Shown here: positions 28,980 to 54,431 of the stretch, one piece after another
Position numbering within the stretch: position 1 is the stretch's first letter
How the letters are laid out: every line of letters begins with the position of its first letter
DNA from: Parapedobacter luteus
Lineage (GTDB): Bacteria; Bacteroidota; Bacteroidia; Sphingobacteriales; Sphingobacteriaceae
Direction of reading: 5' to 3'
DNA length: 64,000 nucleotides
NCBI RefSeq assembly: GCF_900168055.1
Contig: NZ_FUYS01000009.1
Span: forward strand, 62,001 to 126,000
Translations under genes and position numbers: made by a program
The notes under the pieces: generated by a model
The model's database searches: none
Seen by the model: the letters and a program-made list of their open reading frames with translations, nothing else
What the model was told of the DNA's origin: nothing

Positions 28980-29795
28980 TTACTTGTAAGGCTCCAGCGC
29001 CGCAACCAATTCGCGGTAGTCTTTTCGCGTCAGCCCCGGCCCATCGGTAATTTCCCATAGCGCACCCTGAATCAGCGTATAGATAAGCTGCCACTCGGGA
29101 GTTTCATAATCTTCGTCGAAGAGTTCCTGCGGATTGTAATGCTGGGTAAGCCGTAGCTTGGGGTAGTCTTTCAGCAAATCCAGCAGCTTGCGGATATTCG
29201 GGTCTGTGGTGACCACGCCGGGTTCGTACATATCCTTACCGATGGGATAGTCCTGCGTGTCCCACTGCTGGTTTTCTTCCCACGGGAAGGCCATGGAATA
29301 GTTGAGGCACCCCAAGCCGAGGTATACGGTGGTGGTGTCTGCGGGCGTGCTTACGTCTACATAGGTGGGCGGCACCTGGAGACGCACAGTGGATGTGAGG
29401 ATACCGTTTTGCGTGCGTCCTTCGTGTTTGAACAGGCAAATGAGCCCTCCCGGTATCTCAACGGTCACCGTTACATTCAAGCGGTTAATAAAATTTACGT
29501 CTGCATAAAACGTGTTCAGGCTGCCGTGCAGCAGTCCGAGGTCCGGATTGAACGGCTTGTCCGGCCGGGCTACCACCTCGATGCCTTCGGGCAGCTGCCA
29601 GGGCGTCCCTGCGGGAATGCCTTCCGTATCGCCGAATCCCGGCTGGTCTTTCGATGAAGGGATGACGATATCCCAATCGTTTCCCTCTTCCAGTGGATCA
29701 GGCAAGTCTGGCCCCTCCCCTTTGCTGCACCCTGCCAGCAGCAACAGTACCAAAAGATAATGCGGCACCCTATTCATCTTCATTAACGTAATCAT
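28980..29795 (-). CDS. Unrecognised lipoprotein
   Basis: Up to 271 residues; ATGs at 29795, 29783 and 29777 are all possible, with the lipobox LLLAGC placing the acylated cysteine at C23 of the longest form. After an acidic linker (PDLPDPLEEGNDWD) come β-rich segments (LNVTVTVEIPGGLICLFKHE) and a helical end (IRKLLDLLKDYPKLRLTQHY). It resembles lipoproteins in which a thioester-like domain is proposed, but I cannot name the family. It starts 6 bases after the OmpA-like gene ends, so the two are surely co-transcribed. Confidence 0.6.
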   Translation of the reverse strand: MITLMKMNRVPHYLLVLLLLAGCSKGEGPDLPDPLEEGNDWDIVIPSSKDQPGFGDTEGIPAGTPWQLPEGIEVVARPDKPFNPDLGLLHGSLNTFYADVNFINRLNVTVTVEIPGGLICLFKHEGRTQNGILTSTVRLQVPPTYVDVSTPADTTTVYLGLGCLNYSMAFPWEENQQWDTQDYPIGKDMYEPGVVTTDPNIRKLLDLLKDYPKLRLTQHYNPQELFDEDYETPEWQLIYTLIQGALWEITDGPGLTRKDYRELVAALEPYK

Positions 29796-29801
29796 GCTAT
29801 T

Positions 29802-31130
29802 TTACAATTTGATAAATTCTACCCTTCTGTTTTGTGCGCGGCCCGCTGCGGTTTGGTTGTCAGCTACCGGCTCCACCTCGCCCTTGCCACTGGCTTCCAG
29901 CCGGGCGCCGTCTATTTGGTGCTGGGCCTGCAGCGCTTCTTTCACCGCGGCAGCTCTCCGCTCACTCAGCGCCTGGTTGGCGGCGTCGTCACCCACGGCA
30001 TCGGTATGGCCCACAATGTGAACACGGATATCCGGGTGCTGCGTAAGCACCGCAGCGATGGATTTGAGCACCCCGGCGGATTCAGGCTTGATGGTGGCCG
30101 AACCGGTGTCAAACAAAATGCCTGTGGTGCTGAACCTGCCCTCTTCTACCAGCTTGTGCCGGGTATCTGGCAATCCCCTGGCTATTTTGATGTTGCCGAC
30201 GTATACGCCTATCTGTTCGTCTTCATACGGGCTGCTGCCCAGTTGGAAAAACAATTGGTTGAGCTGGCCATCTTTCGGAATGCCCTTGGGTACATCGTAT
30301 AACTTCTCGCCATCCACCCAGAGGCGCAGCCGCTCCTTTTGCACCTGAATCGCCACGTGCGATGATTTGCCGTACCAGCTGCGGGCGACCTTGTTCTTGT
30401 TAGGCGGACTGTAAAAGTGGCGGGTATACTTCTCATAACTCTCCAGCATCAGGTTGGCGGCATCCGACAACGGCGATATTTCCAAGTAAAATGACTTGTC
30501 GCCCTTCGGGTCGGACAGCAGCTTGTTGGCTGTTGTCGACTCGGCCCCGGATGCCAACAGACCAAGTTTGAATGAGGGAGGCAGCCAGCCCTTGAAATCA
30601 ATTTGCAGCACCATGTCAAACTCCACCGTAAAATCGGGCCCGAATGCCTGCTCGTTGTCCGTCAATACCACGGTGCGCTGCGCCATGCGCAGCCATTGGC
30701 CCGGCAGTCCATCCAACGAGACCACCACCGAGCTGCCGTTGCTGTTCCATCCGGTAGGCAATTCGCCGATGGCCTCGCCGCTGAAGTCGTTGGCGTACAA
30801 TACCGAGTCACCAGGCACGAAATCGTACCTGCTGAAGGCGTGGATGGCAGTCTGCTTGTTGGCAGCCGTATCCGGCCCGGGTGCAGCGGATGCGCCGTCT
30901 GTTTCGGGGGTATCTCCATCCGGCTTAGTCGTTGCCGATTCGATGGCTTTATCCATCCCTTTCGATACCGCCTTGTCGGTCTCGTTCAATACTTTCTGGG
31001 TGGCGGTCTGCTCCGCTCTGTTCTTTATTTTGTTCAGGATAGACTGGGCCTGTATAGGAAGGGGCATGATGCCGAATACGATTCCTATAGCTGCGGCAAT
31101 CGCCGCTGTTGTTCGTTGTAAACACTTCAT
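29802..31130 (-). CDS. OmpA-family protein with N-terminal exported domain
   Basis: 442 residues from ATG 31130 (MKCLQRTTAAIAAAIGIVFG, signal peptide ending IQAQ). Next comes a charged helix (ILNKIKNRAEQTATQKVLNE), a central sandwich-like domain (about 100-310; SYGKSSHVAIQ resembles lectin or glucanase-like folds) and a C-terminal OmpA domain: GILFDTGSATIKPES, IVGHTDAVGDDAANQALSER, GRAQNRRVEFIKL. The C-terminal domain normally binds peptidoglycan, so this tethers the outer membrane to the wall. A longer reading to 31202 has no signal-like start. It heads the minus-strand operon ending at 26279. A TAACTTTG -7 box lies about 20 bases before the start. Confidence 0.85.
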   Translation of the reverse strand: MKCLQRTTAAIAAAIGIVFGIMPLPIQAQSILNKIKNRAEQTATQKVLNETDKAVSKGMDKAIESATTKPDGDTPETDGASAAPGPDTAANKQTAIHAFSRYDFVPGDSVLYANDFSGEAIGELPTGWNSNGSSVVVSLDGLPGQWLRMAQRTVVLTDNEQAFGPDFTVEFDMVLQIDFKGWLPPSFKLGLLASGAESTTANKLLSDPKGDKSFYLEISPLSDAANLMLESYEKYTRHFYSPPNKNKVARSWYGKSSHVAIQVQKERLRLWVDGEKLYDVPKGIPKDGQLNQLFFQLGSSPYEDEQIGVYVGNIKIARGLPDTRHKLVEEGRFSTTGILFDTGSATIKPESAGVLKSIAAVLTQHPDIRVHIVGHTDAVGDDAANQALSERRAAAVKEALQAQHQIDGARLEASGKGEVEPVADNQTAAGRAQNRRVEFIKL

Positions 31131-31151
31131 AACACGGATCATTAATCGGCA

Positions 31152-31159
31152 CAAAGTTA
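31152..31159 (-). promoter_or_regulatory. -7 box for the OmpA/hydrolase operon
   Basis: The minus strand reads TAACTTTG here, about 20 bases before the ATG at 31130. No convincing -33 TTTG was found at the usual distance. The gap to the divergent plus-strand gene (31351) is 220 bases. Confidence 0.45.
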
Positions 31160-31350
31160 CCTCCGCTGCCTTATCGCCTTTGTCCGTTTCGATGAACAGC
31201 AATATAGCGGCATGAATGCACCATAGCTTCGACGAAAGTCATGGGATTTTCTATCGCGGTTTAAAGCGGTTCATCGGCGCTATCGGCGATTCGTCGAAAG
31301 TGTTGTTCAGTAAAGACAAAAACCGGCGATACTTGCGCCAAAAATTGATC

Positions 31351-32673
31351 ATGGAACGACATAAAACATCCTTGCTCACCTTGGCCGGGTACCTAACACT
31401 TGTGTTGGCTTTGTCTTGCAACAAGGATACCCCTGCGCCGGCAGATGATGAGGCGCCGCCGGTTTTCGGCGAACCGGTAACCAAGCCAAAAGGTCAACCT
31501 TCGGCCAGTGCCGCTTCAGCGATTATCGGGCCCGCTGGTGGCGTTCTGCAATATGAGCAAGCTGTACGGCTGGAGGTTCCGCCCGAAGCGGTGGCGCAGC
31601 CGACTACCTTTGCCATCCAGCCCATTAGCAACACGCTGGACGATGGTTCTGCTGCACAAGCGTTTAGACTCATGCCGGAAGGTGTCCATTTCAAGAAACC
31701 CATCAAGGTATCTTTCCCGTATATACCCGGCAATGGCGACAACCCGACAGCCCGCATGGTGGCTTTCCAACGGAATGACGGTATATGGTGTGGCGTGCCT
31801 ACGGCACTCGATGCGCAACAGCACCTGTTGACCGTAGAAACGCACCACTTCAGCGACTGGGTGTGGTTCGACATGCTGTCGCTACGTCAGGACAAAGAAA
31901 CCGCACGGGCGGGGGAAACGGCGAACCTCAAGCTGATGGAACAGGTGCTTGGCGCATTGATGCCTGCAAGCACGATCGATAGTGTGCCATTGGCCGCGAT
32001 GGACGACATTGGTTTTTCAAAGGATGTCACGGTAAGCGGCTGGCGGATTGTGTCTGGCCCCGGCACGCTGGAACCGAAACTCAACACCAATCTGTTGCTC
32101 GGCGACGCCATTTACACCGCCCCTACAACCGTCAACGAAGCAGCGAACGTGGAAATCCAGGTGGAGGTGGAAAGCAGGAACGGTTACATCAGCGACCCCA
32201 CCGCCCCCAACGGCCGGCGTAAGCTGGGCAAAATGATCCTCTTGACAACCATCCGCCTGATGCCCGAAAACTTCGTGCAGCTCAAGCTAAACGGTGCCGA
32301 ACAAGACTTCGCCCATTTAGGCAATGCCCGCGTGGTAAACGGCACGCTGTACATCCGCACGCACAACGAGCAGATAAACCTGACCTTGCAGTGCAACGGC
32401 GCCGGACGGGGCACGTATCCCGGTGGGTTTGGAAATGGCCAGTCGCTCTTTTCGCTGACCAGATCCCAGGGACAGACCCGCCGCAGCTTCGCCAATTTCT
32501 ATCGCTCATGTGATACCAACAAAGAGGTCTTCAACGGCTCGGCCGTCATCAGTACGGTGGAGGATTATGTCGAAGGAACGTTTACGGGCAACCTGTATCC
32601 GGTTGACCACCAAAGCTGTGATCTTCCGGAAGCAACGGCCGTGGAGTTTAAATTCAGAATTAAACGTAGTTGA
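31351..32673 (+). CDS. Lipoprotein with ZU5-like domain
   Basis: 440 residues from ATG 31351 (MERHKTSLLTLAGYLTLVLA, then LSC lipobox). A reading from 31216 adds an unlikely 45 residues. After a short acidic linker, IGPAGGVLQYEQAVRLEVPP and the following TTFAIQPIS match the start of ZU5-type β-sandwich domains (GGxLxxxxxxLxVPPxALxxxTxIxI), often found in surface proteins. The remainder is β-rich (FAHLGNARVVNGTLYIRTHN) and unassigned; it ends EATAVEFKFRIKRS. It is divergent from the OmpA operon and followed 24 bases later by a second lipoprotein, so the two are likely one unit. Confidence 0.7.
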   Translation: MERHKTSLLTLAGYLTLVLALSCNKDTPAPADDEAPPVFGEPVTKPKGQPSASAASAIIGPAGGVLQYEQAVRLEVPPEAVAQPTTFAIQPISNTLDDGSAAQAFRLMPEGVHFKKPIKVSFPYIPGNGDNPTARMVAFQRNDGIWCGVPTALDAQQHLLTVETHHFSDWVWFDMLSLRQDKETARAGETANLKLMEQVLGALMPASTIDSVPLAAMDDIGFSKDVTVSGWRIVSGPGTLEPKLNTNLLLGDAIYTAPTTVNEAANVEIQVEVESRNGYISDPTAPNGRRKLGKMILLTTIRLMPENFVQLKLNGAEQDFAHLGNARVVNGTLYIRTHNEQINLTLQCNGAGRGTYPGGFGNGQSLFSLTRSQGQTRRSFANFYRSCDTNKEVFNGSAVISTVEDYVEGTFTGNLYPVDHQSCDLPEATAVEFKFRIKRS

Positions 32674-32697
32674 TAATTTTTAAAAAAGATAACCACC

Positions 32698-33462
32698 ATG
32701 AAACAAATGAGCACGCAGATGAAATGGACTTTCTTTGTGCTGACATTCAGCTTTGTCATTCAACTATTTACCAACTGCTCAAAGGCCAACGATGGCCCCG
32801 AAGGAGATGACGATGGCACGCCACAGCCCGGCTACCTGACCGGAACGGTGAAAGACCAGGCGGGCAACCCGCTGCAAGGCGTGCATATCCTTGTGGACCA
32901 CAGCATTTTTTTCAATTCGAATCTCTCGACATATACCGATGCTGAGGGCAGGTATAAAATTAAGTTACCCAACGGTTCCTGGTATGCTTTTGCTATGCAT
33001 GATGTCAGCTACCAAGGCAATACGTTTTCATTGTACCTCCACCCGGAGAATCCGGCTGGATTTGGCGCGGAAGGCGGTGTCCGCAACTTTGTATGGAAGC
33101 TTTCGGGTACCATGCCACAACCGCTATCGGGAATTTACGGAGGATGGGTGACCATTGACAATTTCCCCGGAGTGTACATAGAGGAAACGGCAATTGACTT
33201 TGTCTTTACGCCGGTAGGCCCGCTCATTGACGGCAGCGCGGGGGAAGTCATACGCCGCCGTGCGGAAGATGCACATAACATCAAGGATATTCCCATCGGT
33301 CGATACCAACTTACCGCCACTTACGAAGGGCGGCCCGTAAAATTCAGGGCGTGGAACTCGGACGCGGAATTCCGTGAAACGTACGATCTGCAGTTCAAGC
33401 CGCAAATCGCTGAACAATGCGACAATTGCGCGATGGTGGAATACTATTGGGAACCACTATAA
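32698..33462 (+). CDS. Lipoprotein with carboxypeptidase regulatory-like domain
   Basis: 254 residues. Signal and lipobox: FVIQLFTNC, then an acidic stretch. GYLTGTVKDQAGNPLQGVHI followed by TDAEGRYKIKLPNGSW is the CarboxypepD_reg-like fold common on Bacteroidota surface proteins. The C-terminal half (about 140-254) is not recognised; it contains a CDNC near the end. It shares its transcript with the ZU5-like lipoprotein upstream. The last six bases overlap, tail to tail, the LytTR regulator gene on the other strand. Confidence 0.68.
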   Translation: MKQMSTQMKWTFFVLTFSFVIQLFTNCSKANDGPEGDDDGTPQPGYLTGTVKDQAGNPLQGVHILVDHSIFFNSNLSTYTDAEGRYKIKLPNGSWYAFAMHDVSYQGNTFSLYLHPENPAGFGAEGGVRNFVWKLSGTMPQPLSGIYGGWVTIDNFPGVYIEETAIDFVFTPVGPLIDGSAGEVIRRRAEDAHNIKDIPIGRYQLTATYEGRPVKFRAWNSDAEFRETYDLQFKPQIAEQCDNCAMVEYYWEPL

Positions 33463-34173
33463 GATTAGCGACTTGATGGGATTCATGTAGTGCTTGCCAA
33501 CACTGATTTCCTGGCCGTTTTCCATAACCAGGTATAGCTTACCAATGTCCCGGTAGCAGGCATCGATACGTTCTATATTGACAATAAACGACCGATGCAC
33601 GCGGACAAATAGCGCGGGGTCGAGCTTCCGCTCGATAGACCCGATACCTGATGAGCTCAGGAATTCCCCTTGCTCCGTGAACACCACGGTGTAGTCGCCG
33701 GCGGCTTTGAAGTACCTCACGTCATTCACGGCAATACGCCGCAAACGCCCACCATCTTCCACAAAAAGGTTTTTTGGATAAGGGTGAGAAGCAAACGTAT
33801 GGTCCGGCAGCCTATCCGCCGGAGGGCGGCTAACCACTTTTTGCAGGGCAGCATCGAGCCGCGCGGCGCCGTAGGGTTTCAACAGGTAATCCAGCGCTTG
33901 ATGGTCAAACGCCCGCAGGGCATGGGATTCGTTGCGGGCCGTGAAGATGATCTTGGGTAAATGGTCGGCCTGCTGTATCAGATCAAACGCTCTTTCCCCT
34001 CCGAGCTGTACATCAAGAAAAAGTACATCCGGCTCCAGCGCATTGACATAGCGGATGGTCTCGTAGGGGCTACCGCACTCGCCAACCACACGAAATCCGG
34101 GACGGCCGCCGATATGTTGCCGGATTTGCTGGCGGCATACCGGCTCGGGGTCGGCAATTAAAATGGTGTTCAT
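33457..34173 (-). CDS. LytTR-family response regulator
   Basis: 238 residues. Receiver domain 1-120 with acidic D8, phosphorylation site D54 (DVLFLDVQLGG) and K99 (YLLKPYG). LytTR DNA-binding domain about 140-238 with FKAAGDYTVVFTEQGEFLSS, RKLDPALFVRVHRSFIVNIE and the end EISVGKHYMNPIKSLIL. These regulators bind DNA repeats and are driven by membrane histidine kinases, often of the TPR or 7TM type. A strong ribosome site (AAGGAGGAT) lies just before the ATG. A TACTTTTG -7 box (34230-34237) and a hairpin lie in the leader. The divergent gene is a TPR histidine kinase, but that kinase is of the HisKA_3 class, whose usual partner is the LuxR-type regulator downstream of it. Confidence 0.9.
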   Translation of the reverse strand: MNTILIADPEPVCRQQIRQHIGGRPGFRVVGECGSPYETIRYVNALEPDVLFLDVQLGGERAFDLIQQADHLPKIIFTARNESHALRAFDHQALDYLLKPYGAARLDAALQKVVSRPPADRLPDHTFASHPYPKNLFVEDGGRLRRIAVNDVRYFKAAGDYTVVFTEQGEFLSSSGIGSIERKLDPALFVRVHRSFIVNIERIDACYRDIGKLYLVMENGQEISVGKHYMNPIKSLIL

Positions 34174-34200
34174 GTTATCCTCCTTTTTTCAAATGCTACG

Positions 34201-34237
34201 TGCGGTGCTCGTAGCGCACCGCAGGCACACAAAAGTA
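34201..34237 (-). promoter_or_regulatory. -7 box and 5' hairpin of the LytTR regulator gene
   Basis: Minus-strand TACTTTTG at 34230-34237, transcript start near 34225. Directly after it TGCGGTGC (34216-34223 on the minus strand) pairs with GCACCGCA (34201-34208), an 8-bp stem with a 7-base loop that would sit at the 5' end of the mRNA. It could protect the message or act as an operator. Confidence 0.4.
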
Positions 34238-34402
34238 AGCGGCAGGCCTTGCGCAATTCATCGAAGTTATGCGATAAAGCGCATTTACGTAGTACTACGC
34301 AAGCCCGTCAAGCGTCTTCGCCGCCACGCAAACGGCCAGTGTAACATTCCGCATCGTTCTATCGTCTACTCTGCGTATTTTTACGGAAATGACTGACTAA
34401 CC

Positions 34403-36337
34403 ATGAAACAGCTTAGCTTTCTGTGCTTTTTGATTTTCGTACTTGCCAGTACCAAGGGACAGGTAGCACAACAGGATACGGCCAGGGTGTTCCAGCTTAT
34501 TGAAGCTGCTAACGAAAAACAACAGCAGGGGCTGGCCGATGCTGCGGAAAGGGATTTCCGCAAAGCGGGAGAATTAGCGAAGCGGCTGAATTTCGACCGT
34601 GGACTTCTGATGTTTGCGGGCTACTATTGTGTATTTCTTTACCACCAAATCCGGTACGAGGAGGCGATGACAATGGCTGAATTGCAATTGGAAGTAAGTG
34701 AACGCATAGGCGATAAGCAACGCATAGGATATGCCTACAACAACATATCCTTGCAACACCAAGCACAGGGGAAGTTGCAGCAAGCCGCCGAGTCTTTGAT
34801 GAAAGCACTGGAAATTTCGTCGGAAATCGAAAGCCCCACCCCTCGCGATCTCTCGGATCGCCGGAAATACTACAACAACCTCAGTTCGCTGCTGCTGGAT
34901 ATGAACGATCTGAAGAAGGGTAAGGAATATGCCGTGAAAGCGCTCGAAATCGCTGAGCAGCTGCAAGACACCTTGGCTATCGGATGGAGCCTGATAAACC
35001 TACTGGTAGCCGAAGCGATGGCCGGTGAGCTGGCTGACGCGGAGAAACATGGCATGCAATTGCTGGCCGTCGGCCAATCGCAGGGCGACGCCGAGATGGA
35101 GCTGAAAGCTTACAATAACCTCGGCGATATCTATCGTATGCAAAAACGGTATCCACTCGCGCTGGAAACCTTTAAAAAAGCCCAGCGGCTTCTGGCCAAA
35201 GCGCCTCCCGGCAACGAAGTGTATATCCTCATGGGCATTTCCTCGGTGTACAACGGCATGAAGCAATACGGCCAAGCCAATACGTATTTCGATCGCGCAC
35301 GTATGCTGGCCGAACGGGAACTAGCCAAACCTCAGCTTATTGAACTGTACCTTTCGGGCGCGGAAATCAAGGAAGCTATGGGTAACTATAAAGAAGCGCT
35401 CGCGCTTCGGAAGCAGTATGAACAAATCAACGATTCGCTACGCAATCAGGAAACCCACAATGCCATACAGGAGCTCGAAGTGAAGTACCAGACTTCCGAG
35501 AAAGAGAAGGCGCTTGCTGAACGCGACCTGCAAATCAGCAAACAGCGCGGCGAACTGGAACGCAAGAATAAGTGGGTGATTTTATCTGTCTCCCTGGTTG
35601 CAATATCGGTCCTGTTATGGGTATTCAACCGTCTAATCAGCCGACAGAAACGGAAAACTGAGGCGACGGAGCAGGCCAACCGCCTGCTGGAAGCGCAACT
35701 GCGCGGTGAAGAAAAGGAGCGGGCGCGCACCGCCCGCGAACTGCACGATGGCGTTGCCAGCATCTTGTCCGCGGCTAAACTCCACATTAACGCAAGGCCG
35801 GGAGGAGACACCAAAACCGACCTACTCGTGGGGCAGCTGATCGAAACCGCCGTACAGGAAATCCGCAACCTCTCCCACAACCTGGCTCCGGAACGGGTAC
35901 TTAACGACGGGTTTGAGCAGGCCGTGCAGGAGTTTTGTAGGCGTGTGAACCATCCGGGGTTGCAACTGGAGTGTTATGTGGTAGGAGTACTCCCGAAACT
36001 GGATAAAGACGCCGAGCTCTTGCTATACCGAATCATCCAGGAAGCCGTGACCAATATCGTGAAGCATGCCGAAGCCACCGAAGGTATCGTGCAGCTCGTG
36101 GGCGACGGCCCACGGCTCTCCATCACCATTGAAGACAACGGCAGGGGATTTGAGCATGATGCCTCGAAAAGCACCGGCCTGGGACTGAAAAACCTCGCCT
36201 CCAGAATACAATTACTGAAAGGCAGCCACGAAGTACGTTCCGCACCCGGAAAAGGGACGTCCATCTACATCGAAATTGATGCGGCTACTGCGATGCAACT
36301 TACAGATACCGGATTGGAAACGCACTTTTCCGGATAA
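34403..36337 (+). CDS. TPR-type sensor histidine kinase (HisKA_3)
   Basis: 644 residues. Signal peptide 1-20; TPR repeats about 25-345 (AYNNISLQHQAQGKLQQAAE, AYNNLGDIYRMQKRYPLALE); coiled coil 350-388; membrane helix 391-414; dimerisation/phosphotransfer helix with ARTARELHDGVAS, H448; ATPase with N box NIVKHAEA (551-558), DNGRGF (578-583) and GLGLKN (592-597). The TPRs should lie in the periplasm, though the signal peptide could instead be a first helix. HisKA_3 kinases pair with NarL/FixJ regulators, and such a regulator gene follows 80 bases downstream. The stimulus is unknown. Confidence 0.92.
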   Translation: MKQLSFLCFLIFVLASTKGQVAQQDTARVFQLIEAANEKQQQGLADAAERDFRKAGELAKRLNFDRGLLMFAGYYCVFLYHQIRYEEAMTMAELQLEVSERIGDKQRIGYAYNNISLQHQAQGKLQQAAESLMKALEISSEIESPTPRDLSDRRKYYNNLSSLLLDMNDLKKGKEYAVKALEIAEQLQDTLAIGWSLINLLVAEAMAGELADAEKHGMQLLAVGQSQGDAEMELKAYNNLGDIYRMQKRYPLALETFKKAQRLLAKAPPGNEVYILMGISSVYNGMKQYGQANTYFDRARMLAERELAKPQLIELYLSGAEIKEAMGNYKEALALRKQYEQINDSLRNQETHNAIQELEVKYQTSEKEKALAERDLQISKQRGELERKNKWVILSVSLVAISVLLWVFNRLISRQKRKTEATEQANRLLEAQLRGEEKERARTARELHDGVASILSAAKLHINARPGGDTKTDLLVGQLIETAVQEIRNLSHNLAPERVLNDGFEQAVQEFCRRVNHPGLQLECYVVGVLPKLDKDAELLLYRIIQEAVTNIVKHAEATEGIVQLVGDGPRLSITIEDNGRGFEHDASKSTGLGLKNLASRIQLLKGSHEVRSAPGKGTSIYIEIDAATAMQLTDTGLETHFSG

Positions 36338-36383
36338 CGCAATCTTCCGTAGTGATACGGATACGACAGCGCGATAATTGCTT

Positions 36384-36408
36384 TAAATTTGCATAAAACT
36401 TTAGGAGA
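36384..36408 (+). promoter_or_regulatory. -7 box and ribosome site of the LuxR-type regulator
   Basis: TAAATTTG at 36384-36391 gives a transcript start near 36397. AGGAGA (36403-36408) lies 9 bases before ATG 36418. No clear -33 element. The regulator may therefore be transcribed both with the kinase and on its own. Confidence 0.45.
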
Positions 36409-36417
36409 TATGCACTT

Positions 36418-37047
36418 ATGATTACCATTGGAATCGTGGACGACCACTCGCTGATCATCAGCGGACTGGCCCATATGCTGAGTGATCAGCCGGATTGCCC
36501 TATCCTGTTTACCGCCGGCAATGGCAAACAGCTCGTCGCCGAATTGGAGCGCCAGCTGCCGGATGTCTTGTTGCTTGACATCGAATTGCCGGACAGTAAT
36601 GGGATTGAGTTATGTGCAGAAATCTTGAAAAAATACCCTGCCTTGCCGATTATTGCGCTCACAAACCATGACGAGGTCGTTTACGTCAGGAAGATGATAC
36701 GCAGCGGTGCAAAGGGCTACTTGCTCAAAGGAACCGACAAACAGAACCTCCTGAATGCCATCCAGGCGGTATACAACGGCCAGCAATTTTTAGACCGCCA
36801 GATTGAACAGGCCATCTTGCAGCAAGCCATCTCGGGCAAACGGCCATCAACAATCATTAAACTAACCAAGCGGGAGAACGAAATTCTGGCGTTAATAGCC
36901 AATGAGTATTCCAATCAGGAAATCGCTGATAAGCTGTTTCTAAGCGTGCGCACGGTGGAGTCGCATCGGCACAGCCTTAATCAGAAGCTGAACATCAAAA
37001 ACCCAGCAGGCTTGGTCAAGGAAGCGTATCTACGCGGGCTGATTTAG
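36418..37047 (+). CDS. NarL/FixJ-type response regulator
   Basis: 209 residues. Receiver 1-120: acidic pair DD (8-9), phosphorylation site D54 (VLLLDIELPDSNG), and K at GAKGYLLKG. LuxR-type helix-turn-helix about 145-205: KLTKRENEILALIANEYSNQ, then EIADKLFLSVRTVESHRHSL. It is very probably the partner of the HisKA_3 kinase gene just upstream (80-base gap). Targets are unknown; no tandem site for it was recognised in the window. Confidence 0.93.
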   Translation: MITIGIVDDHSLIISGLAHMLSDQPDCPILFTAGNGKQLVAELERQLPDVLLLDIELPDSNGIELCAEILKKYPALPIIALTNHDEVVYVRKMIRSGAKGYLLKGTDKQNLLNAIQAVYNGQQFLDRQIEQAILQQAISGKRPSTIIKLTKRENEILALIANEYSNQEIADKLFLSVRTVESHRHSLNQKLNIKNPAGLVKEAYLRGLI

Positions 37048-37049
37048 CT

Positions 37050-37643
37050 TTACTTCTGGCCGAGGGTCTTCCGTATCCGGCTGAGGCTATCCTGATGAAT
37101 GCCCAATAATGAAGCAATATATTTTAAAGGAACCTGCTGGATGACCTCCGGCTGTTCGGCCATGATTTTTTGATAACGTTCTTCCGCAGTCATGCACGCC
37201 GCATCGATTTGGCTATCTTGTATCCAATTGAGCAGCCTATCCATAATTGCCAGCTCCATGTCGTACATTCGGGGAATCCGCTGCTTCATCGCCTCTACAC
37301 CGGGCCTATCCCACACCAACACATCGATATCGGTGAGCGATTCCAACGCACAGGAGGACAGCTCGCCATTCAGCAAGTATAGCGGGGTAGACAGGAAATC
37401 ATTCACCGAGACGATACCCAGTGTGTAATCCACGCCGTTGTGTAGCCGGTACAAACGGGCAATGCCGCTGTTCAGAAAATAAAGTGTCCTGACAACCTTA
37501 CCTTGTTCCATGATTACCGTATGGGGCGGCAGTAACTTATGGCTGGTAAACGATTTGATGATCTCGAACTCTGCAGGCGTAAATAACACACCTTTACGCT
37601 GCGCGTAATGACATACCTTTTTAAAATGGTCAGGCGGTATCAT
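37050..37643 (-). CDS. Crp/Fnr-family regulator
   Basis: 197 residues from ATG 37643 (MIPPDHFKKVCHYAQRKGVL); the longer reading from 37715 adds an unlikely hydrophobic start. Cyclic-nucleotide-binding-like domain about 20-115 (LPPHTVIMEQGKVVRTLYFL), central helix, then helix-turn-helix near the C-terminus (IASLLGIHQDSLSRIRKTLG). The arginine of the usual cAMP-binding site was not recognised, as in most Bacteroidota members, so the signal may be another ligand or none. It ends 2 bases from the LuxR-type gene and is divergent from a LytTR regulator; a 14-bp palindrome lies between those two starts. Confidence 0.88.
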   Translation of the reverse strand: MIPPDHFKKVCHYAQRKGVLFTPAEFEIIKSFTSHKLLPPHTVIMEQGKVVRTLYFLNSGIARLYRLHNGVDYTLGIVSVNDFLSTPLYLLNGELSSCALESLTDIDVLVWDRPGVEAMKQRIPRMYDMELAIMDRLLNWIQDSQIDAACMTAEERYQKIMAEQPEVIQQVPLKYIASLLGIHQDSLSRIRKTLGQK

Positions 37644-37708
37644 GATAAAGCGAGATCTTAACGGCCAATCCGTTACGAAAATAATAAAAAAAACCAAGGC
37701 AACAATTT

Positions 37709-37753
37709 CTGACATATGTCAGTTGAACTCGAGGCGCTGCCACACTAATTTTG
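37709..37753 (+). promoter_or_regulatory. Palindrome CTGACATATGTCAG and promoter of second LytTR gene
   Basis: A perfect 14-bp palindrome at 37709-37722 directly touches TTG (37723-37725); 20 bases later TAATTTTG (37746-37753) completes a good Bacteroidota promoter for the gene at 37777. A protein on the palindrome would sit at the promoter's -33 edge and 66 bases from the divergent Crp/Fnr start, so the Crp/Fnr protein is the natural candidate. Confidence 0.6.
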
Positions 37754-37776
37754 CTTGCCATGAAAAGAATAGGGTT

Positions 37777-38505
37777 ATGAGAAAGTCTACATTACTGATT
37801 GCGGATAAGGACGGCGATTTCCGTGAGGAACTTCAGCGCTTGATCAGACAACAGGGATATCCGGCTGTATTTTGGACGTGCTGCAACGGACTGGAAGCCC
37901 TCAAATACATCAATGCGCTGCAACCCGACCTCGTCTTGATGAACGTTGAGTTGCCTGGTAAAAGTGGATTTGAAGTATTGGATGCCGCCATTGAAACCCC
38001 TGCCGCCATTTTACTTGCCGATTCGCCTGCATATGCCGCCAAGGCGTTTGAGTACCATGCCGTGGATTACCTCCTAAAGCCGTTTACCGCGGAACGCCTG
38101 GAACTGGCGCTGGGGCGCTCAGCGTTGCGAAGCAGCTCAATGGCTGCAATCCGCCATCTCCATACCCCAAATAACGGCTTTCCCACCCGCATATTGGTAG
38201 AAAAAGGGAAACGCCTCACCAGCATCCCGGTCGATAAAATCACCCATTTTAAAGCAGACAAGGATTACACGTGGATTCATACCATCAATGGCGAGTCGTA
38301 CCTCAGCACGAACGGCATCGGCCAACTTGAGCGCAAGCTAAACCCAGTGCACTTCATCCGCATCCATCGCTCCTATATTGTCAATATTGATTATATCCAG
38401 GAACTTTACCGCGATATCAGCAGACTTTTTGTAGCGCTGCCCAATGCCATCGAAATCAATGTCGGACGAAACTATATGCCCGCCATAAAAGAGCTGATGT
38501 TCTAA
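37777..38505 (+). CDS. LytTR-family regulator with altered receiver (N in place of D)
   Basis: 242 residues from ATG 37777; a longer reading from 37642 would cover its own promoter. The receiver domain looks ordinary (acidic residues near 10-14, YLLKPF lysine) except at the phosphorylation site: DLVLMNVELPG has asparagine 56 (AAC at 37942) where aspartate is expected. Such receivers cannot be phosphorylated in the normal way and may act constitutively or by ligand or protein contact. The LytTR domain is complete: VDKITHFKADKDYTWIHTIN, RKLNPVHFIRIHRSYIVNID, INVGRNYMPAIKELMF. It is clearly related to the LytTR gene at 33457, which keeps D54. The end overlaps the methyltransferase-like gene on the other strand by 4 bases. 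Confidence 0.9.
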   Translation: MRKSTLLIADKDGDFREELQRLIRQQGYPAVFWTCCNGLEALKYINALQPDLVLMNVELPGKSGFEVLDAAIETPAAILLADSPAYAAKAFEYHAVDYLLKPFTAERLELALGRSALRSSSMAAIRHLHTPNNGFPTRILVEKGKRLTSIPVDKITHFKADKDYTWIHTINGESYLSTNGIGQLERKLNPVHFIRIHRSYIVNIDYIQELYRDISRLFVALPNAIEINVGRNYMPAIKELMF

Positions 38506-42196: not shown

Positions 42197-42232
42197 TGCG
42201 TACTACGGGTTATCGTTTAATGCCAAATGGCC

Positions 42233-44638
42233 ATGATCAGAAACTACTTCAAAATCGCTTGGCGAAACCTCATCCGCGATAAGCGGACGTCCCTTATCAA
42301 CATCACCGGCTTGTCCCTGGGTATAGCAGCAGCATTGATACTCTTCGTCATCATCCAATACGAACGGAGCTTTGACAGGTTTCACAGAAACTACAAGCAC
42401 GTCTACCGCGTCGTCACAGAAACACAATATGGAAATTCGTCGGATTATAACCAAGGGGTGGCGGCTCCGCTGGCTAAGGCGCTCAGCATAGACATGCCAC
42501 AGCTGAAAGCCGTCGCTCCCTTATACGCTTCAGGCGGTCAAATCAACGTCACCAAGAGCACCAACCAGGTAGACAAATATTCGGAACTGGTCCTCTTTAC
42601 ATCGGCCGATTTTTTTAAGCTCTTTGATGCCACTTGGCTGGCGGGCAACGCGGACGTATTGGCCGATCCTAACCTTGCCGTGCTGGACCGCAAGACGGCG
42701 GCACGCTATTTCGGATCATGGCAACAGGCTATCGGTCAAGACCTTCTGTTTGCCAACGAGATCCCGCTGAAGATAGCCGGCGTGGTAGAAAACGTACCGG
42801 AGAACAGCAACTTCCCTTATCGGTTGCTGGTTTCCTTTCCCACACTGGAAGCAAACGCCCACTTATTTAATTACGGGCCTGACGACTGGAAAAGTGTGAG
42901 CAGCAGTATGCAACTCTATGTACTGCTTGATCCCCAAGACGCCAATACGGCGACAGGACAGTTAGCGGCGCTCTCCAAGAAGTATTTTGACAATCAGGGC
43001 GCCTCCATCCGGATACTTCATCTCCAGCCACTCAGCGACATTCATTTCGATGCGCGTTATGGAACCGTTGACCACCGTCAAATCAATCGGTCAACATTGA
43101 CGACACTGGCGCTTATCGGCGTATTCATTTTGCTGATGGCCTCCATCAATTTTGTGAACCTCACTACCGCACAGGCGATAGGAAAGGGTAAAGAAATTGG
43201 TGTGCGCAAGGTACTGGGTGGCAGCAGAAGAAGCTTGATTATACAATCTTTCGGCGAGACATTTCTGCTGGTCTTTATAGCCTTGCTGGTGGCTGTGGCC
43301 TTGGCTTATGGTGCCTTACCCCATATTCACCACCTTTCCAACATGCCGGACGTTCCGCATGTGCTACAGGCGGATACATTGACTTTCTTATTGCTTTCGT
43401 TACTGGGACTTACCTTCCTTGCGGGGCTTTATCCTGCTTTGGTTATCTCCGGTTTCAAGCCCGTGGTAGCGCTTAAAAACAAAATCAACACCGCCCAAAT
43501 CGGTGGGGTGCCGTTGCGCAAGGGACTCGTGGCCGTACAGTTTGTCATTGCCCAATTGCTCATGATAGGTACGCTGGTAGCCGTCAAGCAGATGGTCTTT
43601 ATCCGTGATGCCGATCTGGGTTTTGACCAGTCTGCACTGTATACAATACAGGTACCGTCGGACGGTAAGCAACAGCGTATGTCGGTATTCAAGCAGCAGT
43701 TGCTGCAACTCCCCGGCGTTAAATCGGTAAGCTTCGCCAGCGATGTACCATCGTCAGACAACAAATGGTCGTCCAATTTTTACTTTGACGGCGATACATC
43801 GGACAACATCAACTTTCCTGCATTCCTGAAATTTACGGACGCAGATTATTTCGAAAGCTACGGCCTGTCCATGGTTGCTGGTCAAGCTTACGCAGACAGT
43901 GATACCCTCCGAGAAGCCGTCATCAACGAAACCATGGTCCAGAAGCTGGGGCTGGCTTCGGCAGCGGACGCTATCGGAAAACGTATCCGCATCGGTTTTG
44001 CCTCGCCATGGATGACGATATCAGGCGTAGTCAAGGACTATACTCCTAATTCCCTACGCGAAGAAATCAGCCCCATCATCATGGGGACGGACAAAAGCCT
44101 CTATTACGTTGCTGGCATAAAGCTCGGTGCAGGTACGGGCAAGAAGACGCTGAACGAGATTCAACAGCTATTTGAAGCGCTCTATCCGGAACATTACTAC
44201 GAGGCGTCCTTCTTGGACGAAACTATCAGCGAATTTTATAAGCAGGAGGAGAAAATGGCCACAGCCTATCAGTTTTTTGCTGCCTTATCTGTTGTAATCT
44301 CCAGTATTGGCTTGTATGGCATGGTCTCGTTCATGCTGGGGCAAAAGGTTAAAGAGATAGGCATCCGGAAGGTGCTTGGTGCAAGTGTTGCGAGCATTGT
44401 ATACCTTTTCTCAAAGGAGTTTATTTACCTCGTGGGCATTGCCTTTTTCATTGCGGCCCCGTTGGCATATTACTTCATGCAAGATTGGCTCAATAGCTTT
44501 GCTTACCGCATCGATTTATCGGCAGGGTTGTTTCTGGCCGTCATGCTGGCCGCGTTGGCAATCGCCCTGGCCACCATCGGCATGCGGGTGTACAGGGCCG
44601 CCATAGCCAATCCGGTTGAGTCATTGAAAGATGAATGA
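42233..44638 (+). CDS. FtsX/MacB-like ABC permease (copy 10)
   Basis: 801 residues from ATG 42233 (MIRNYFKIAWRNLIRDKRTS); an ATG at 42227 lies two codons earlier and is less like the family. First gene of the second block, directly behind sigma-54 region 3. FtsX-one loop GKGKEIGVRKVLGGSRRSLI; FtsX-two loop KVKEIGIRKVLGASVASIVY. The last two helices (LAYYFMQDWLNSFAYRIDLS, GLFLAVMLAALAIALATIGM) differ from the common C-terminus, and the ending is ANPVESLKDE. Its periplasmic domains are the most different from the first block, so a different ligand is likely. Confidence 0.92.
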   Translation: MIRNYFKIAWRNLIRDKRTSLINITGLSLGIAAALILFVIIQYERSFDRFHRNYKHVYRVVTETQYGNSSDYNQGVAAPLAKALSIDMPQLKAVAPLYASGGQINVTKSTNQVDKYSELVLFTSADFFKLFDATWLAGNADVLADPNLAVLDRKTAARYFGSWQQAIGQDLLFANEIPLKIAGVVENVPENSNFPYRLLVSFPTLEANAHLFNYGPDDWKSVSSSMQLYVLLDPQDANTATGQLAALSKKYFDNQGASIRILHLQPLSDIHFDARYGTVDHRQINRSTLTTLALIGVFILLMASINFVNLTTAQAIGKGKEIGVRKVLGGSRRSLIIQSFGETFLLVFIALLVAVALAYGALPHIHHLSNMPDVPHVLQADTLTFLLLSLLGLTFLAGLYPALVISGFKPVVALKNKINTAQIGGVPLRKGLVAVQFVIAQLLMIGTLVAVKQMVFIRDADLGFDQSALYTIQVPSDGKQQRMSVFKQQLLQLPGVKSVSFASDVPSSDNKWSSNFYFDGDTSDNINFPAFLKFTDADYFESYGLSMVAGQAYADSDTLREAVINETMVQKLGLASAADAIGKRIRIGFASPWMTISGVVKDYTPNSLREEISPIIMGTDKSLYYVAGIKLGAGTGKKTLNEIQQLFEALYPEHYYEASFLDETISEFYKQEEKMATAYQFFAALSVVISSIGLYGMVSFMLGQKVKEIGIRKVLGASVASIVYLFSKEFIYLVGIAFFIAAPLAYYFMQDWLNSFAYRIDLSAGLFLAVMLAALAIALATIGMRVYRAAIANPVESLKDE

Positions 44639-44686
44639 TTGTATTGCGATAAGCGGTAGAAGGCAATAAGCATAACGCACAAAAAC

Positions 44687-47167
44687 ATGATAACGAACTA
44701 TTTTAAAACCGCTTGGCGAAATGCCGTTCGGAATAGCGCGCAGGCCCTCATTAATGTGTTCGGCCTGACCTTGGGCATGGCCTGCGTCATGCTGATTGCA
44801 CTTTTCATCAAGCATGAATACCAATATGACCGGCATTTCGCGGATGCCGACCGCATTTTCCGTGTAAACATGAATGGGAAAATGGGCGAAGAGGAGTTCT
44901 ACGCTGGCTATACCCCGCCGCCTGCCGGCAGGACGTTGATGGAAACATTTCCCGAAATCGAAAGTTATACCCGGCTCTATCGCCCCGGACAAAAGATCGT
45001 CCACACCGGCGAGGGGGGCAATCGGGAAAACCGGTTCAATGAGCACGGTATATTGAGCGTGGATTCTAACTTCCTGCAGGTGCTCAACTATCCGCTACGG
45101 GCAGGAGACCGGAATACCTGTCTTGCCGATCCGCATAGCGTCGTGCTTACAGACGCCATGGCCAAAAAATATTTCGGTGATGCCAATCCGATAGGGCGTG
45201 GACTATTCATTGAGGGTGACGAACAACCCTATACGGTCACCGGCGTGGTGGACTTCCCGTCTACACCCAGTTCGCTTACGTTTGACTTTCTCATTCCCAT
45301 CTCCAATGCTCAAAATGTCCGTTATTTTGACTGGAGCTGGGTATGGCTGAATGTGGCCACGTACGTCAAATTCAAACCCCAAGCAGCCATCGATGCAGCG
45401 GCCATCAAGCGCTTGGAGGCTAAATTCCCGGCGATGATGCGCCAGCATGCAGTCAGCGCCTTTCAGCGCATCGGCCAGCCCTATGATGAATTTTTAAAGA
45501 AAGGGGGCAAATGGGATTTGAGCCTCCAGCCGTTGCTCGATGTCCATCTGTATTCTGCTGATATTATTTCGGCGGTCACCGATCAGGGCAGTATCAAGAC
45601 CGTATACTTCTTTGCCGTCATCGCGCTGTTTATCCTGTTATTGGCGTGCGTGAACTTCATGAACCTTTCTACCGCCGGGGCTTCCAAACGGGCAAAAGAG
45701 ATTGGGGTGCGTAAAGTCATCGGCTCCACTCGCCAGCAAGTGGCCCGGCAGTTTCTCGCCGAGGCAGTGATACTAAGCACTTTTGCCTGCTTGATGGCAT
45801 TGACGCTGGTCTATTGCACGCTGCCTTATTTCAATCAAATATCCGGCAAAACAATCGTTTTTGAAACGTTGTGGACAGCAGGCAACTGGCTGTACGTGGC
45901 ACTGCTCGTATTAATGTGTTCATTGCTTGCGGGCAGCTATCCCGCTTTTTACTTGAGTGCATTCAAGCCGGTAGCAGTACTAAAAGGGCAAAAAATTCCA
46001 GCCACTTCGGGAAGCAACGGCAATATCCGAAGTGGTTTGATTGTGTTCCAGTTCACGATTTCCATCGCGTTGGCCATCTGTACGCTCGTAGTCTACCAGC
46101 AGCTAAAATACACACAACTCCACGACCTGGGGCTGAACAAAGAAAACGTGCTGGTGATTTCAAATAGCGAGCGTCTTGGCAATCAGCAGGATAGCTTCAA
46201 GGAGGAATTGAAACGCCTTTCTGTGGTGAACAATGCTTCCATCACGTCCAGCCTGCCTGGTAGAGGCGGCCATGGCGATTTCTACGTGCCGCTGCCAAGT
46301 GCCGGCGATGAGCCGGCAGTCAAGGACATCACACTCAATTCGTACCTGACGGATGCTGATTTTATCGAAACCATGGGCATCTCGTTGATCGCTGGCCGGA
46401 ACTTTGCGGATGGTTATGACGACTCCCGCACGGTGCTTATCAACGAGACGGCCGCCAAACGCATGGGATACAAACAACCGGTGGGCAAATTTATCAACTA
46501 TCCCGGGGGTAATGCCGCGGAATCGTATCAAATCGTGGGGGTAATGAAAGACTTTCATACGGAGTCGTTGCACGTCCCCATCCAACCGTTTGCGTTATTC
46601 CATGAATCTTCGCACACGTATGAGAAGTCTACTTCTAACATTGTCGTCCGCATGAAGCCGGGGGATTTATCGCCGGTACTCCAGCAAACCGCCCACCTAT
46701 GGCGGTCTTTTTCGCCCGACCTGCCTTTTGAATATAGCTTCCTTCGGGAGGAACTGGCCATGCAATATGCCTCGGATCAGCGCACGGCCGAAATCATCGG
46801 CATCTTCAGTGTGCTATCCATCGTGATTGCCTGCATCGGTTTGCTGGGATTGGTCATTTTCGCGACGCAACTCCGCACCAAGGAAATCGGCATCCGGAAA
46901 GTGCTGGGAGCCACGGAAGGCAGCATTGTCCGTCTACTTTCGAAAGACTTTATGAAACTGATAGGCTTGTCCGTCCTCATTGCCTCGCCCATTGCGTGGT
47001 GGACCATGAATAAGTGGCTGGAAGATTTCGCCTACCGAATCGGCATGGCATGGTGGATGTTTGCCCTGGCGGGATCGATGGCGCTGATCATTGCACTGGC
47101 AACAGTAGGCTTTCAGGCGATGAGGGCGGCAACCGCCAACCCGGTAGACGCGTTGAGGGACGAGTGA
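44687..47167 (+). CDS. FtsX/MacB-like ABC permease (copy 11)
   Basis: 826 residues, the longest copy, 48 bases after copy 10 and without a promoter signal of its own, so a probable second gene of that operon. Its first periplasmic domain is enlarged (TYVKFKPQAAIDAAAIKRLE and the following DEFLKKGGKWDLSLQ). FtsX-one loop RAKEIGVRKVIGSTRQQV; FtsX-two loop LRTKEIGIRKVLGATEGS. C-terminus partly of the common kind (SPIAWWTMNKWLEDFAYRIG) but with GFQAMRAATANPVDALRDE at the end. The next gene has a separate housekeeping promoter that begins just after this stop. Confidence 0.92.
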   Translation: MITNYFKTAWRNAVRNSAQALINVFGLTLGMACVMLIALFIKHEYQYDRHFADADRIFRVNMNGKMGEEEFYAGYTPPPAGRTLMETFPEIESYTRLYRPGQKIVHTGEGGNRENRFNEHGILSVDSNFLQVLNYPLRAGDRNTCLADPHSVVLTDAMAKKYFGDANPIGRGLFIEGDEQPYTVTGVVDFPSTPSSLTFDFLIPISNAQNVRYFDWSWVWLNVATYVKFKPQAAIDAAAIKRLEAKFPAMMRQHAVSAFQRIGQPYDEFLKKGGKWDLSLQPLLDVHLYSADIISAVTDQGSIKTVYFFAVIALFILLLACVNFMNLSTAGASKRAKEIGVRKVIGSTRQQVARQFLAEAVILSTFACLMALTLVYCTLPYFNQISGKTIVFETLWTAGNWLYVALLVLMCSLLAGSYPAFYLSAFKPVAVLKGQKIPATSGSNGNIRSGLIVFQFTISIALAICTLVVYQQLKYTQLHDLGLNKENVLVISNSERLGNQQDSFKEELKRLSVVNNASITSSLPGRGGHGDFYVPLPSAGDEPAVKDITLNSYLTDADFIETMGISLIAGRNFADGYDDSRTVLINETAAKRMGYKQPVGKFINYPGGNAAESYQIVGVMKDFHTESLHVPIQPFALFHESSHTYEKSTSNIVVRMKPGDLSPVLQQTAHLWRSFSPDLPFEYSFLREELAMQYASDQRTAEIIGIFSVLSIVIACIGLLGLVIFATQLRTKEIGIRKVLGATEGSIVRLLSKDFMKLIGLSVLIASPIAWWTMNKWLEDFAYRIGMAWWMFALAGSMALIIALATVGFQAMRAATANPVDALRDE

Positions 47168-47175
47168 TTTTGCTT

Positions 47176-47207
47176 TTTGGATATAAAAGCGAATTTAGCT
47201 AAGTTTG
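47176..47207 (+). promoter_or_regulatory. Housekeeping promoter of the CocE-like hydrolase gene
   Basis: TTTG (47176-47179), 20 bases, then TAAGTTTG (47200-47207): a full match to the Bacteroidota promoter. The start would be near 47213, ten bases before ATG 47223. This sets the gene apart from the sigma-54 units on both sides. Confidence 0.75.
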
Positions 47208-47222
47208 TCGAAAAGCCTGACT

Positions 47223-49097: not shown

Positions 49098-49113
49098 GGG
49101 TGTTGCCCATATG

Positions 49114-49142
49114 CGAACAAGCGGTGTCCGATATCGGACACC
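49114..49142 (+). promoter_or_regulatory. Three-half-site operator (candidate enhancer), region 4
   Basis: CGAACA (49114-49119), TGTCCG (49125-49130), CGGACA (49135-49140); the inner pair gives the perfect 20-bp palindrome GGTGTCCGATATCGGACACC (49123-49142). The two T-to-C and A-to-G changes relative to the other copies are compensated on both arms, good evidence that the symmetry is under selection. The centre is 63.5 bp from the -24 G. A fourth CGGACA follows at 49146. Confidence 0.82.
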
Positions 49143-49174
49143 CACCGGACAATACAGACAACAACACTGCTGAT

Positions 49175-49208
49175 TATAAACAAATTGTGTTTTTGGCGCA
49201 GTTACTGC
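49175..49208 (+). promoter_or_regulatory. IHF-like site and sigma-54 promoter, region 4
   Basis: TATAAACAAATTG (49175-49187), one mismatch to the IHF consensus, ends 9 bp before the -24 G. The promoter TTGGCGCAGTTACTGC is the best sigma-54 match of the five (GG 49195-49196, GC 49207-49208). Predicted start near 49220, leader about 58 bases. Confidence 0.82.
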
Positions 49209-49277
49209 ACGTCCGTTGGCAGGGGCCTTGATAGGACACTTGAGTGACTTGCAAGGCCACCCGCAAAACGCAAGTTC

Positions 49278-51683: not shown

Positions 51684-51822
51684 TCGTATATAAGGAGGTA
51701 CCGATGCATCGAGCCTACCCTTTAATTAACGGCTGTTTCTTGGCCCGATTGATGTGTACTTCATGGTTGTTTTGCAGCATATCCTGATCAGCGGTATATT
51801 CATGCAATAGATTGTCCGGTAT

Positions 51823-51850
51823 GGAACAACCGGTGTTCGATATCGAACAC
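51823..51850 (+). promoter_or_regulatory. Three-half-site operator (candidate enhancer), region 5
   Basis: GGAACA (51823-51828), TGTTCG (51834-51839), CGAACA (51844-51849); 18-bp perfect palindrome GTGTTCGATATCGAACAC at 51833-51850, identical to that of region 2 more than 42 kb away. Centre 63.5 bp from the -24 G. Confidence 0.82.
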
Positions 51851-51883
51851 TTTTATCCGCCAACTTCAACATAAACAACTAAC

Positions 51884-51917
51884 AATAAACAACTTATATG
51901 TTTGGCCTAATAACTGC
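51884..51917 (+). promoter_or_regulatory. IHF-like site and sigma-54 promoter, region 5
   Basis: AATAAACAACTTA (51884-51896), one mismatch to the IHF consensus, ends 9 bp before the -24 G. The promoter TTGGCCTAATAACTGC has GG 51904-51905 and GC 51916-51917. The start would be near 51929, only about 3 bases before the family-type ATG at 51932, so the message may be leaderless. Confidence 0.78.
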
Positions 51918-51931
51918 AATTATTGCGTACT

Positions 51932-54346: not shown

Positions 54347-54431
54347 TTTCAGCTTATGGGTTATAACCGTTAGGCTTAACAGCGTATTGCTTATAACCTG
54401 ACGCTTACTTCATAAATCTAAAATGTAAAAA

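Follow-up and report, generated by a model that had tools for sequence, protein, structure and literature searches.

How does a response regulator of the LytTR type receive its signal when the aspartate that should accept the phosphate has been replaced by asparagine? This question is raised by a locus of Parapedobacter luteus contained in a stretch of 64,000 nucleotides of its genome, which we refer to in full as the window. Its central gene, LytTRa, encodes P0001, a regulator with a receiver domain and a LytTR DNA-binding domain. The initial annotation had noted the asparagine and proposed that normal phosphorylation of the protein is impossible and that it works instead by constant activity or by a different signal, perhaps under the control of the Crp/Fnr-type protein encoded divergently from it. 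The features of the locus that bear on this proposal are collected in Table 1.

Table 1. Features of the LytTRa locus, with positions in the window and the evidence for each assignment.
Feature	Position	Strand	Evidence
OmpA-family protein, found in many LytTRa loci, possible target	29802..31202	-	Pfam OmpA 1.8e-24; synteny
LytTRb (P0002), second LytTR regulator; Asp54 kept, DD2 and switch Thr lost	33457..34173	-	alignment
Palindrome CGTAGTACTACG, LytTRb promoter, between LytTRb and the TPR kinase gene	34288..34299	.	conservation of position
TPR histidine kinase (HisKA_3, HATPase_c)	34403..36337	+	Pfam
NarL/LuxR-type response regulator (motifs IVDDH, LLLDIEL and LLKG)	36418..37047	+	Pfam, translation
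Crp/Fnr-family regulator (P0003), about 197 aa, predicted regulator of LytTRa	37050..37643	-	Pfam cNMP_binding 6.7e-9
Palindrome CTGACATATGTCAG, predicted Crp/Fnr-type operator of the LytTRa promoter	37709..37722	.	conservation, rarity
TAATTTTG, predicted -7 box of the LytTRa promoter	37746..37753	+	TAnnTTTG conservation
LytTRa (P0001), receiver-LytTR regulator, 242 aa	37777..38505	+	translation; Pfam
Codon of Lys11 (P0001), second metal-binding acid (DD2, D13 of CheY)	37807..37809	+	alignment
Codon AAC, Asn56 (P0001), phospho-acceptor position	37942..37944	+	sequence, alignment
Codons of Ala81 (switch Thr position) and Asp82 (T+1, normally Ala or Gly) (P0001)	38017..38022	+	alignment

The phosphorylation site of LytTRa and its orthologs

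The AAC codon is present and lies in frame with LytTRa, as had been read from the sequence at the outset. Counted from the ATG at 37777, at which the matches to its orthologs likewise begin, the asparagine is residue 56 and not 54, the latter number belonging to the aspartate of P0002. The gene ends at the stop codon 38503-38505, and the longer frame that an ORF finder opens at 37642 is probably not the gene because it crosses the LytTRa promoter. A sequencing error behind the Asn56 codon is unlikely given that Asn also occurs in an 82%-identical ortholog (L015) and in the genus orthologs L017 and L018. P0001 has the build of a LytTR response regulator, with a receiver (Pfam Response_reg, residues 7-111, 3.3e-16; 59.9 bits against a PF00072 cut-off of 30.2) followed by a LytTR DNA-binding domain (residues 146-241, 8.7e-22). 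Its best NCBIfam matches, BtsR and LytR, both fall below their cut-offs, and no specific family is assigned. An AlphaFold2 model of P0001 is confident per residue (mean pLDDT 86.2), and its domain arrangement was left unused because the pTM is 0.50. The best full-length match of the model among solved folds is ComE of Streptococcus pneumoniae (4cbv), and further matches include the XynC and LytR receivers.

Alignment with canonical receivers places D10 of P0001 at DD1, K11 at DD2, N56 at the phospho-acceptor position (D), A81 at the switch threonine (T), D82 at T+1, and Y98 and K101 at the tyrosine and lysine positions (Y and K). Of the five catalytic residues, P0001 keeps D10 and K101 and has lost the other three. 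The early suggestion that P0001 would not be phosphorylated in the normal way thus gains strength, since the losses extend from Asn56 to DD2 and the switch Thr and T+1 is an aspartate rather than an alanine.

To place these changes in context, relatives were drawn from 9 genomes of the genus, from sets of 201 and 399 genomes of the family and from 300 genomes of the order; one relative (L012), which has no receiver, was not included when receivers were counted. LytTRa forms one clade of 23 rows in a 45-row tree, and its orthologs in six named Parapedobacter species share 66-82% identity with P0001. A survey of homologs for the same change, as the initial annotation had recommended, finds Asn at the phospho-site in ten of the 23 orthologs, Asp in six, Ser in five and Ala in two, which leaves 17 of 23 without Asp. 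At DD2 the clade carries Lys (8), Arg (8), Ser (4), Tyr, Asn and Ala (1 each), and an acidic residue in no case. The T position is Ser in 21 orthologs and Ala in 2, and T+1 is Asp in 11, Glu in 6 and another residue in 6. DD1 and the tyrosine are found in all 23, and the lysine in 19 with Arg in the remaining 4. D-bearing homologs in the same clade, which together with proof of their phosphorylation would have spoken against the initial reading, do occur (6 of 23); none of the six keeps DD2, at which they have S, K, N, A, K and S.

Columns 11, 56 and 82 were removed before a 30-row tree of LytTRa and its seven-member sister group was built; on this tree the D column changes state at least eight times and passes between D and another residue at least five times. 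At each of these positions the sister group is canonical, and D and DD2 are kept in 41 of 41 other receivers of a 62-row alignment, these being neither LytTRa nor LytTRb and consisting of close P0001 matches and the window genome's own receivers rather than a random sample. Asn alone was rejected as the cause, since none of the 23 orthologs retains DD2 and the phospho-site switches between D, N, S and A. Judged by these residues, the LytTRa receiver is a pseudo-receiver across its lineage, which is more than the drift of one protein. We infer that DD2 was lost first in the clade and that D varied later.

The LytTRa promoter and the neighbouring Crp/Fnr gene

A palindrome of the form TGA-N6-TCA, CTGACANNTGTCAG, is found upstream of all 23 LytTRa genes, with 20 exact copies and 3 that have one or two mismatches. 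The distance between this palindrome and a downstream TAnnTTT element is 23 nt in 18 rows, as it is in the window, and 22 nt in 5, and the bases between the two are hardly conserved. The box itself reads TAnnTTTG in 22 of the 23 promoters and TACTTTT in one; TAnnTTTG is given as the -7 consensus of Bacteroidota in the section of PMC7366714 cited here. Orthologs bearing D, N, S or A at the phospho-site have this one promoter design in common, a finding that argues against Asn as the key feature of the regulator.

The palindrome is also rare. In the window there is one match with at most one mismatch, where 0.10 are expected in shuffled sequence, and the 4.83-Mb genome holds two exact copies, one in the LytTRa promoter and one in a coding frame of at least 789 codons that reads as a PAS sensor protein. 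Exact copies occur in 20 of 23 genomes with LytTRa versus 1 of 22 without it. Among the 44 genomes other than the window's own, 19 of the 22 with LytTRa carry an exact copy, beside LytTRa, and a reversed control pattern occurs in 3 of the 44 and at no place in the window's genome. Only the window's genome and G006 have more than one exact copy among the 20 LytTRa genomes with an exact palindrome, and genome G151 has an exact palindrome with neither a LytTRa nor a Crp/Fnr ortholog. The TGA-N6-TCA spacing is common to CRP and FNR sites, and class II activators occupy sites centred near -41.5. Assuming that transcription starts a few bases past the box, the centre of the LytTRa palindrome is predicted to lie near -42.

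The gene next to this promoter encodes P0003, for which NCBIfam names no specific family and whose only solved relatives at E <= 0.01 are 3dn7 and 4ev0. Its start is likely the Met at 37643, because the alignment upstream of this residue meets stops in 6 of 24 orthologs. The segment IH(Q/H)DSLSRIRK, which we take to be the recognition helix, is kept in 23 of 23 Crp rows, one per LytTRa genome. At a threshold of E <= 1e-45, an ortholog of P0003 was detected in 24 of 399 family genomes, namely all 23 with LytTRa and one (G352) of the 376 without it. The naive Fisher p value for this co-occurrence, 2e-36, ignores relatedness and assumes the same genome set in both searches, and the co-occurrence does not represent 23 independent events, given the relatedness of the genomes and the linkage of the two genes in most of them. 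Indeed, the Crp/Fnr gene adjoins LytTRa in 20 of 23 loci, divergently in 19 and in the same direction in G076, where the palindrome lies between the two genes. In G270 it lies about 2 kb from LytTRa. G043 and G216 carry it at another place in the genome, and in both the palindrome sits at LytTRa and not at the separated Crp gene.

The initial suggestion of control by the divergent Crp/Fnr protein is indirectly supported by two of these observations, the conserved palindrome at activator distance and the co-occurrence of the genes, from which binding of P0003 to this site would be predicted. On balance, we favour a model in which LytTRa is an orphan pseudo-receiver whose activity is set by its supply, with its transcription under the neighbouring Crp/Fnr protein. 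In this model, the P0001 receiver would neither bind Mg2+ nor accept phosphate in the normal manner and would be kept as a folded part, probably a dimerisation unit that holds the LytTR domain ready to bind DNA, P0001 likely being a standing dimer or one driven by concentration. DNA binding by LytTRa would then be independent of phosphate and, since there would be no phosphate switch, its activity would be set mainly by the amount made. The Crp/Fnr protein would bind its dedicated palindrome at the class II activator position and control LytTRa transcription, and the signal would thus enter through Crp/Fnr and not through a histidine kinase. Input to LytTRa has, by this reasoning, probably moved to transcription. 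A class II site is open to a repressor as well, and we would expect activation rather than repression here. The target genes may be the OmpA-type surface genes of the same locus, the presence of an OmpA-family gene in many LytTRa loci being drawn from synteny lists that omit unmatched ORFs below 150 aa.

The palindrome could also be the site of LytTRa itself, as in autoregulation, or of a third protein, in which case the Crp/Fnr gene would merely be a conserved neighbour. Such a reading accommodates the palindrome staying with LytTRa where the Crp/Fnr gene lies apart, as well as the lack of a palindrome in G352, which has the Crp/Fnr ortholog and no LytTRa. Nonetheless, TGA-N6-TCA fits the geometry of CRP and FNR sites, none of the 23 LytTRa genomes is without the Crp/Fnr ortholog and LytTR proteins are known to bind direct repeats of about 9 bp, unlike this palindrome, so we regard this alternative as rather unlikely.

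Receiver constraint and a second degenerate regulator

Among Parapedobacter orthologs, of which one of seven (L018) was left out for its length, rough dN/dS values are 0.075-0.153 for the receiver in the 6 of 15 pairs with a computable dS, the other 9 giving none because synonymous sites are saturated, and 0.015-0.055 for the LytTR domain in 3 of 15 pairs. Y98, L99, P102, A87 and A90 are invariant in the 23 orthologs and presumably lie on or near the alpha4-beta5-alpha5 side. By these measures LytTRa is not a decaying gene.

Around the former metal site, DD2 is basic in 16 of 23 rows and T+1 acidic in 17, and an acidic T+1 accompanies a basic DD2 in 15 of 16 rows versus 2 of the 7 others (naive Fisher p 0.003). 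Of the 112 receiver positions, only one covaries more strongly in charge with position 11 than position 82 does. These patterns are suggestive of a salt bridge between Lys/Arg11 and Asp/Glu82 that may fill the site. Additionally, Cys is found at residue 35 in 12 of the 23 rows and at residue 36 in 13. Coupling of this kind resembles a rebuilt pocket and, together with the cysteines and the purifying selection on the receiver, is consistent with a receiver that directly senses a ligand, a redox state or a partner, comparable to the linker cysteine of RitR, with transcription serving as background control. We nevertheless consider direct sensing unlikely, given that the K11-D82 pairing amounts to only two independent pairs on well-supported branches, that the phospho-site holds N, S, A or D in different orthologs, and that the Cys pair is not clade-wide, which likewise makes a redox switch at Cys35/36 a weak candidate.

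Constant activity, one of the modes proposed initially, is in turn opposed by the K+2 residue of P0001, Phe103, since Phe at this position biases CheY to the inactive form (PMC12632262, in the passage cited). Studies of the DD2 position point both ways: with Lys at DD2, CheY is active without phosphate and the equivalent EpsW protein of Myxococcus is inactive, according to the part of PMC4671073 used here, and a CheY D13K/Y106W double mutant serves as an active form (PMC11528121, likewise in part).

The locus contains a second LytTR regulator, LytTRb, which had been brought in for comparison as a related protein with D54. Its Asp54 is indeed present. As a normal reference it does not hold up, its DD2 being Pro9 and its switch Thr an Ala, and P0002 was rejected as a phosphorylatable reference because both residues are missing. 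P0002 and seven relatives all keep D, with R, P or S at DD2 and Ala or Gly at T; these LytTRb counts leave out the LytTRb-like genes of L110-L113 and L154, as well as the divergent and degenerate LytTRb-like L098b and L101b, which are part of the 45-row tree. Across the 12 LytTR receivers of the window's genome, D, DD2 and K are all present in 10; the exceptions are P0001, without D and DD2, and P0002, without DD2. Two of the 10 intact receivers have Glu at DD1, one of which also has Ser-His at T and T+1.

No LytS-type kinase (PF06580, His_kinase) was found on the contig that carries P0001 and P0002 (C18). The genome has eight PF06580 matches, all elsewhere and each within about 2.5 kb of another LytTR gene, and the 5 of 13 LytTR genes without such a match nearby are P0001, P0002, one on contig C6, one on C11 and one at a contig end. 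The TPR histidine kinase of the locus is presumed to partner the NarL-type regulator and not the LytTR proteins.

LytTRb has a palindrome of its own, CGTAGTACTACG, of which the copy in its promoter is the only exact one in the window's genome. It is found in exact form at LytTRb in 6 of 8 LytTRb genomes and somewhere in 2 of 33 others and, with two degenerate copies included, it stands 50 nt ahead of a TAnnTTTG box in 8 of 8. A reversed control matches 29 of 41 genomes, and it is therefore the place of CGTAGTACTACG rather than its rarity that supports it. Two genomes, G210 and G330, have CGTAGTACTACG with the kinase and NarL genes and without a LytTRa or Crp/Fnr ortholog, which points to the NarL-type regulator or LytTRb as the candidate binder. 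If so, each degenerate LytTR regulator may take its input from a sensing regulator encoded next to it.

The proximity of the two degenerate regulators, which 6 of 7 genus genomes with LytTRa carry at a spacing of about 3.5-4.5 kb, could alternatively mean that they form a heterodimer whose activity needs both inputs, after the pattern of BldM and WhiI. This is very unlikely because each occurs without the other: G005 has LytTRa, with LytTRb, the histidine kinase and NarL not found in its locus, and G210 and G330 have LytTRb with no LytTRa match. Still less probable is an ordinary response regulator that underwent a single late D-to-N loss and whose D-bearing orthologs are phosphorylated by an unlinked kinase, for although some orthologs keep D, all keep DD1 and most keep the lysine, none of those with D retains DD2, the D column has changed state repeatedly and no LytS-type kinase is linked in the window's genome.

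Several features of the surrounding DNA are recorded here in their own right. The divergent intergenic region between the OmpA and ZU5-type genes holds a conserved block (31185-31232) with two TCGAA copies 40 nt apart, a candidate operator present in 6 of 15 sources checked. Positions 29521-38501 are 87% identical in DNA to L090 of genome G001 over 9 kb; the OmpA, ZU5 and carboxypeptidase-like proteins of the two are 95-98% identical, LytTRa 72% and Crp 71%, which looks like a recent exchange of part of the locus. In locus L154 of G216, OmpA, carboxypeptidase-like, Crp, NarL, kinase and LytTRb-like genes form a cassette that lacks LytTRa; the LytTRa gene of that genome, with its palindrome, lies about 320 kb away. 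On either side of the LytTRa locus lies a block of genes (1424-24437 and 42227-56780), together about 14, for permease-like proteins of some 800 aa that are FtsX/MacB-like by eye; one of these genes (6414-8821) is split into overlapping frames of 485 and 411 aa by a frameshift or a sequencing error.

A possible exchange of input and its relation to known systems

Beyond the single regulator, it is conceivable, though somewhat short of an even chance, that a LytTR lineage has swapped its input. The kinase switch would have been dismantled, the metal site first and Asp then drifting to N, S or A. Its role would have passed to one Crp/Fnr protein acting through one dedicated operator per genome, and the Lys/Arg11-Asp/Glu82 bridge would have replaced the metal site. 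LytTRb would represent a second case, its palindrome perhaps belonging to the NarL-type system. If a lineage-wide swap of this kind is true, the locus is a natural experiment on the evolution and control of pseudo-receivers. Because the D-, N-, S- and A-bearing orthologs have one promoter design and one predicted controller, regulation by supply rather than by phosphate is directly testable.

Pseudo-receivers as such are known, and we did not find the LytTRa lineage described in the open literature, in which we also found no paper on a LytTR pseudo-receiver or an aspartate-lacking LytTR response regulator and none joining LytTR with Crp, Fnr and Pedobacter. The word LytTR is absent from the main text of PMC4395418 and PMC12632262, and the portion of PMC8895600 consulted holds nothing on Asp-less LytTR receivers. 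LytTRa resembles the aspartate-less or pseudo-receivers of these surveys (Maule 2015, PMC4395418; Bourret 2025, PMC12632262; both in the passages cited) in that a Pfam receiver has its phospho-Asp replaced and DD2 lost, with DD1, Tyr and Lys kept. The former gives Asn, Ser and Ala as 16%, 15% and 9% of replacements of the phospho-Asp, and the latter reports a non-acidic DD2 in about 80% of pseudo-receivers, which make up about 6% of its representative bacterial receiver set. Unlike the proteins of those papers, LytTRa shows D, N, S and A among orthologs with one promoter design.

P0001 has the same two-domain build as ComE, BtsR and LytR. Those three operate through a cognate kinase that phosphorylates their Asp, and P0001 has neither. 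CovR, the relative from which RitR of S. pneumoniae diverged, is a regulator of the OmpR type. RitR, whose divergence from CovR and activation by oxidation of linker Cys128 are described in the cited part of PMC5965902, is like P0001 a pseudo-receiver with Lys at DD2 (Lys10; PMC4395418). Unlike in RitR, the LytTRa linker is poorly conserved, with no kept cysteine seen among the 23 orthologs. The scheme proposed for LytTRa is similar to one two-tier model of CmrRST in Clostridioides difficile, in which the system sets the level of the constitutively active pseudo-receiver CmrT (PMC12632262, in the passage cited). The first tier of CmrRST is an OmpR-family regulator with a kinase, whereas that of LytTRa would be a Crp/Fnr protein.
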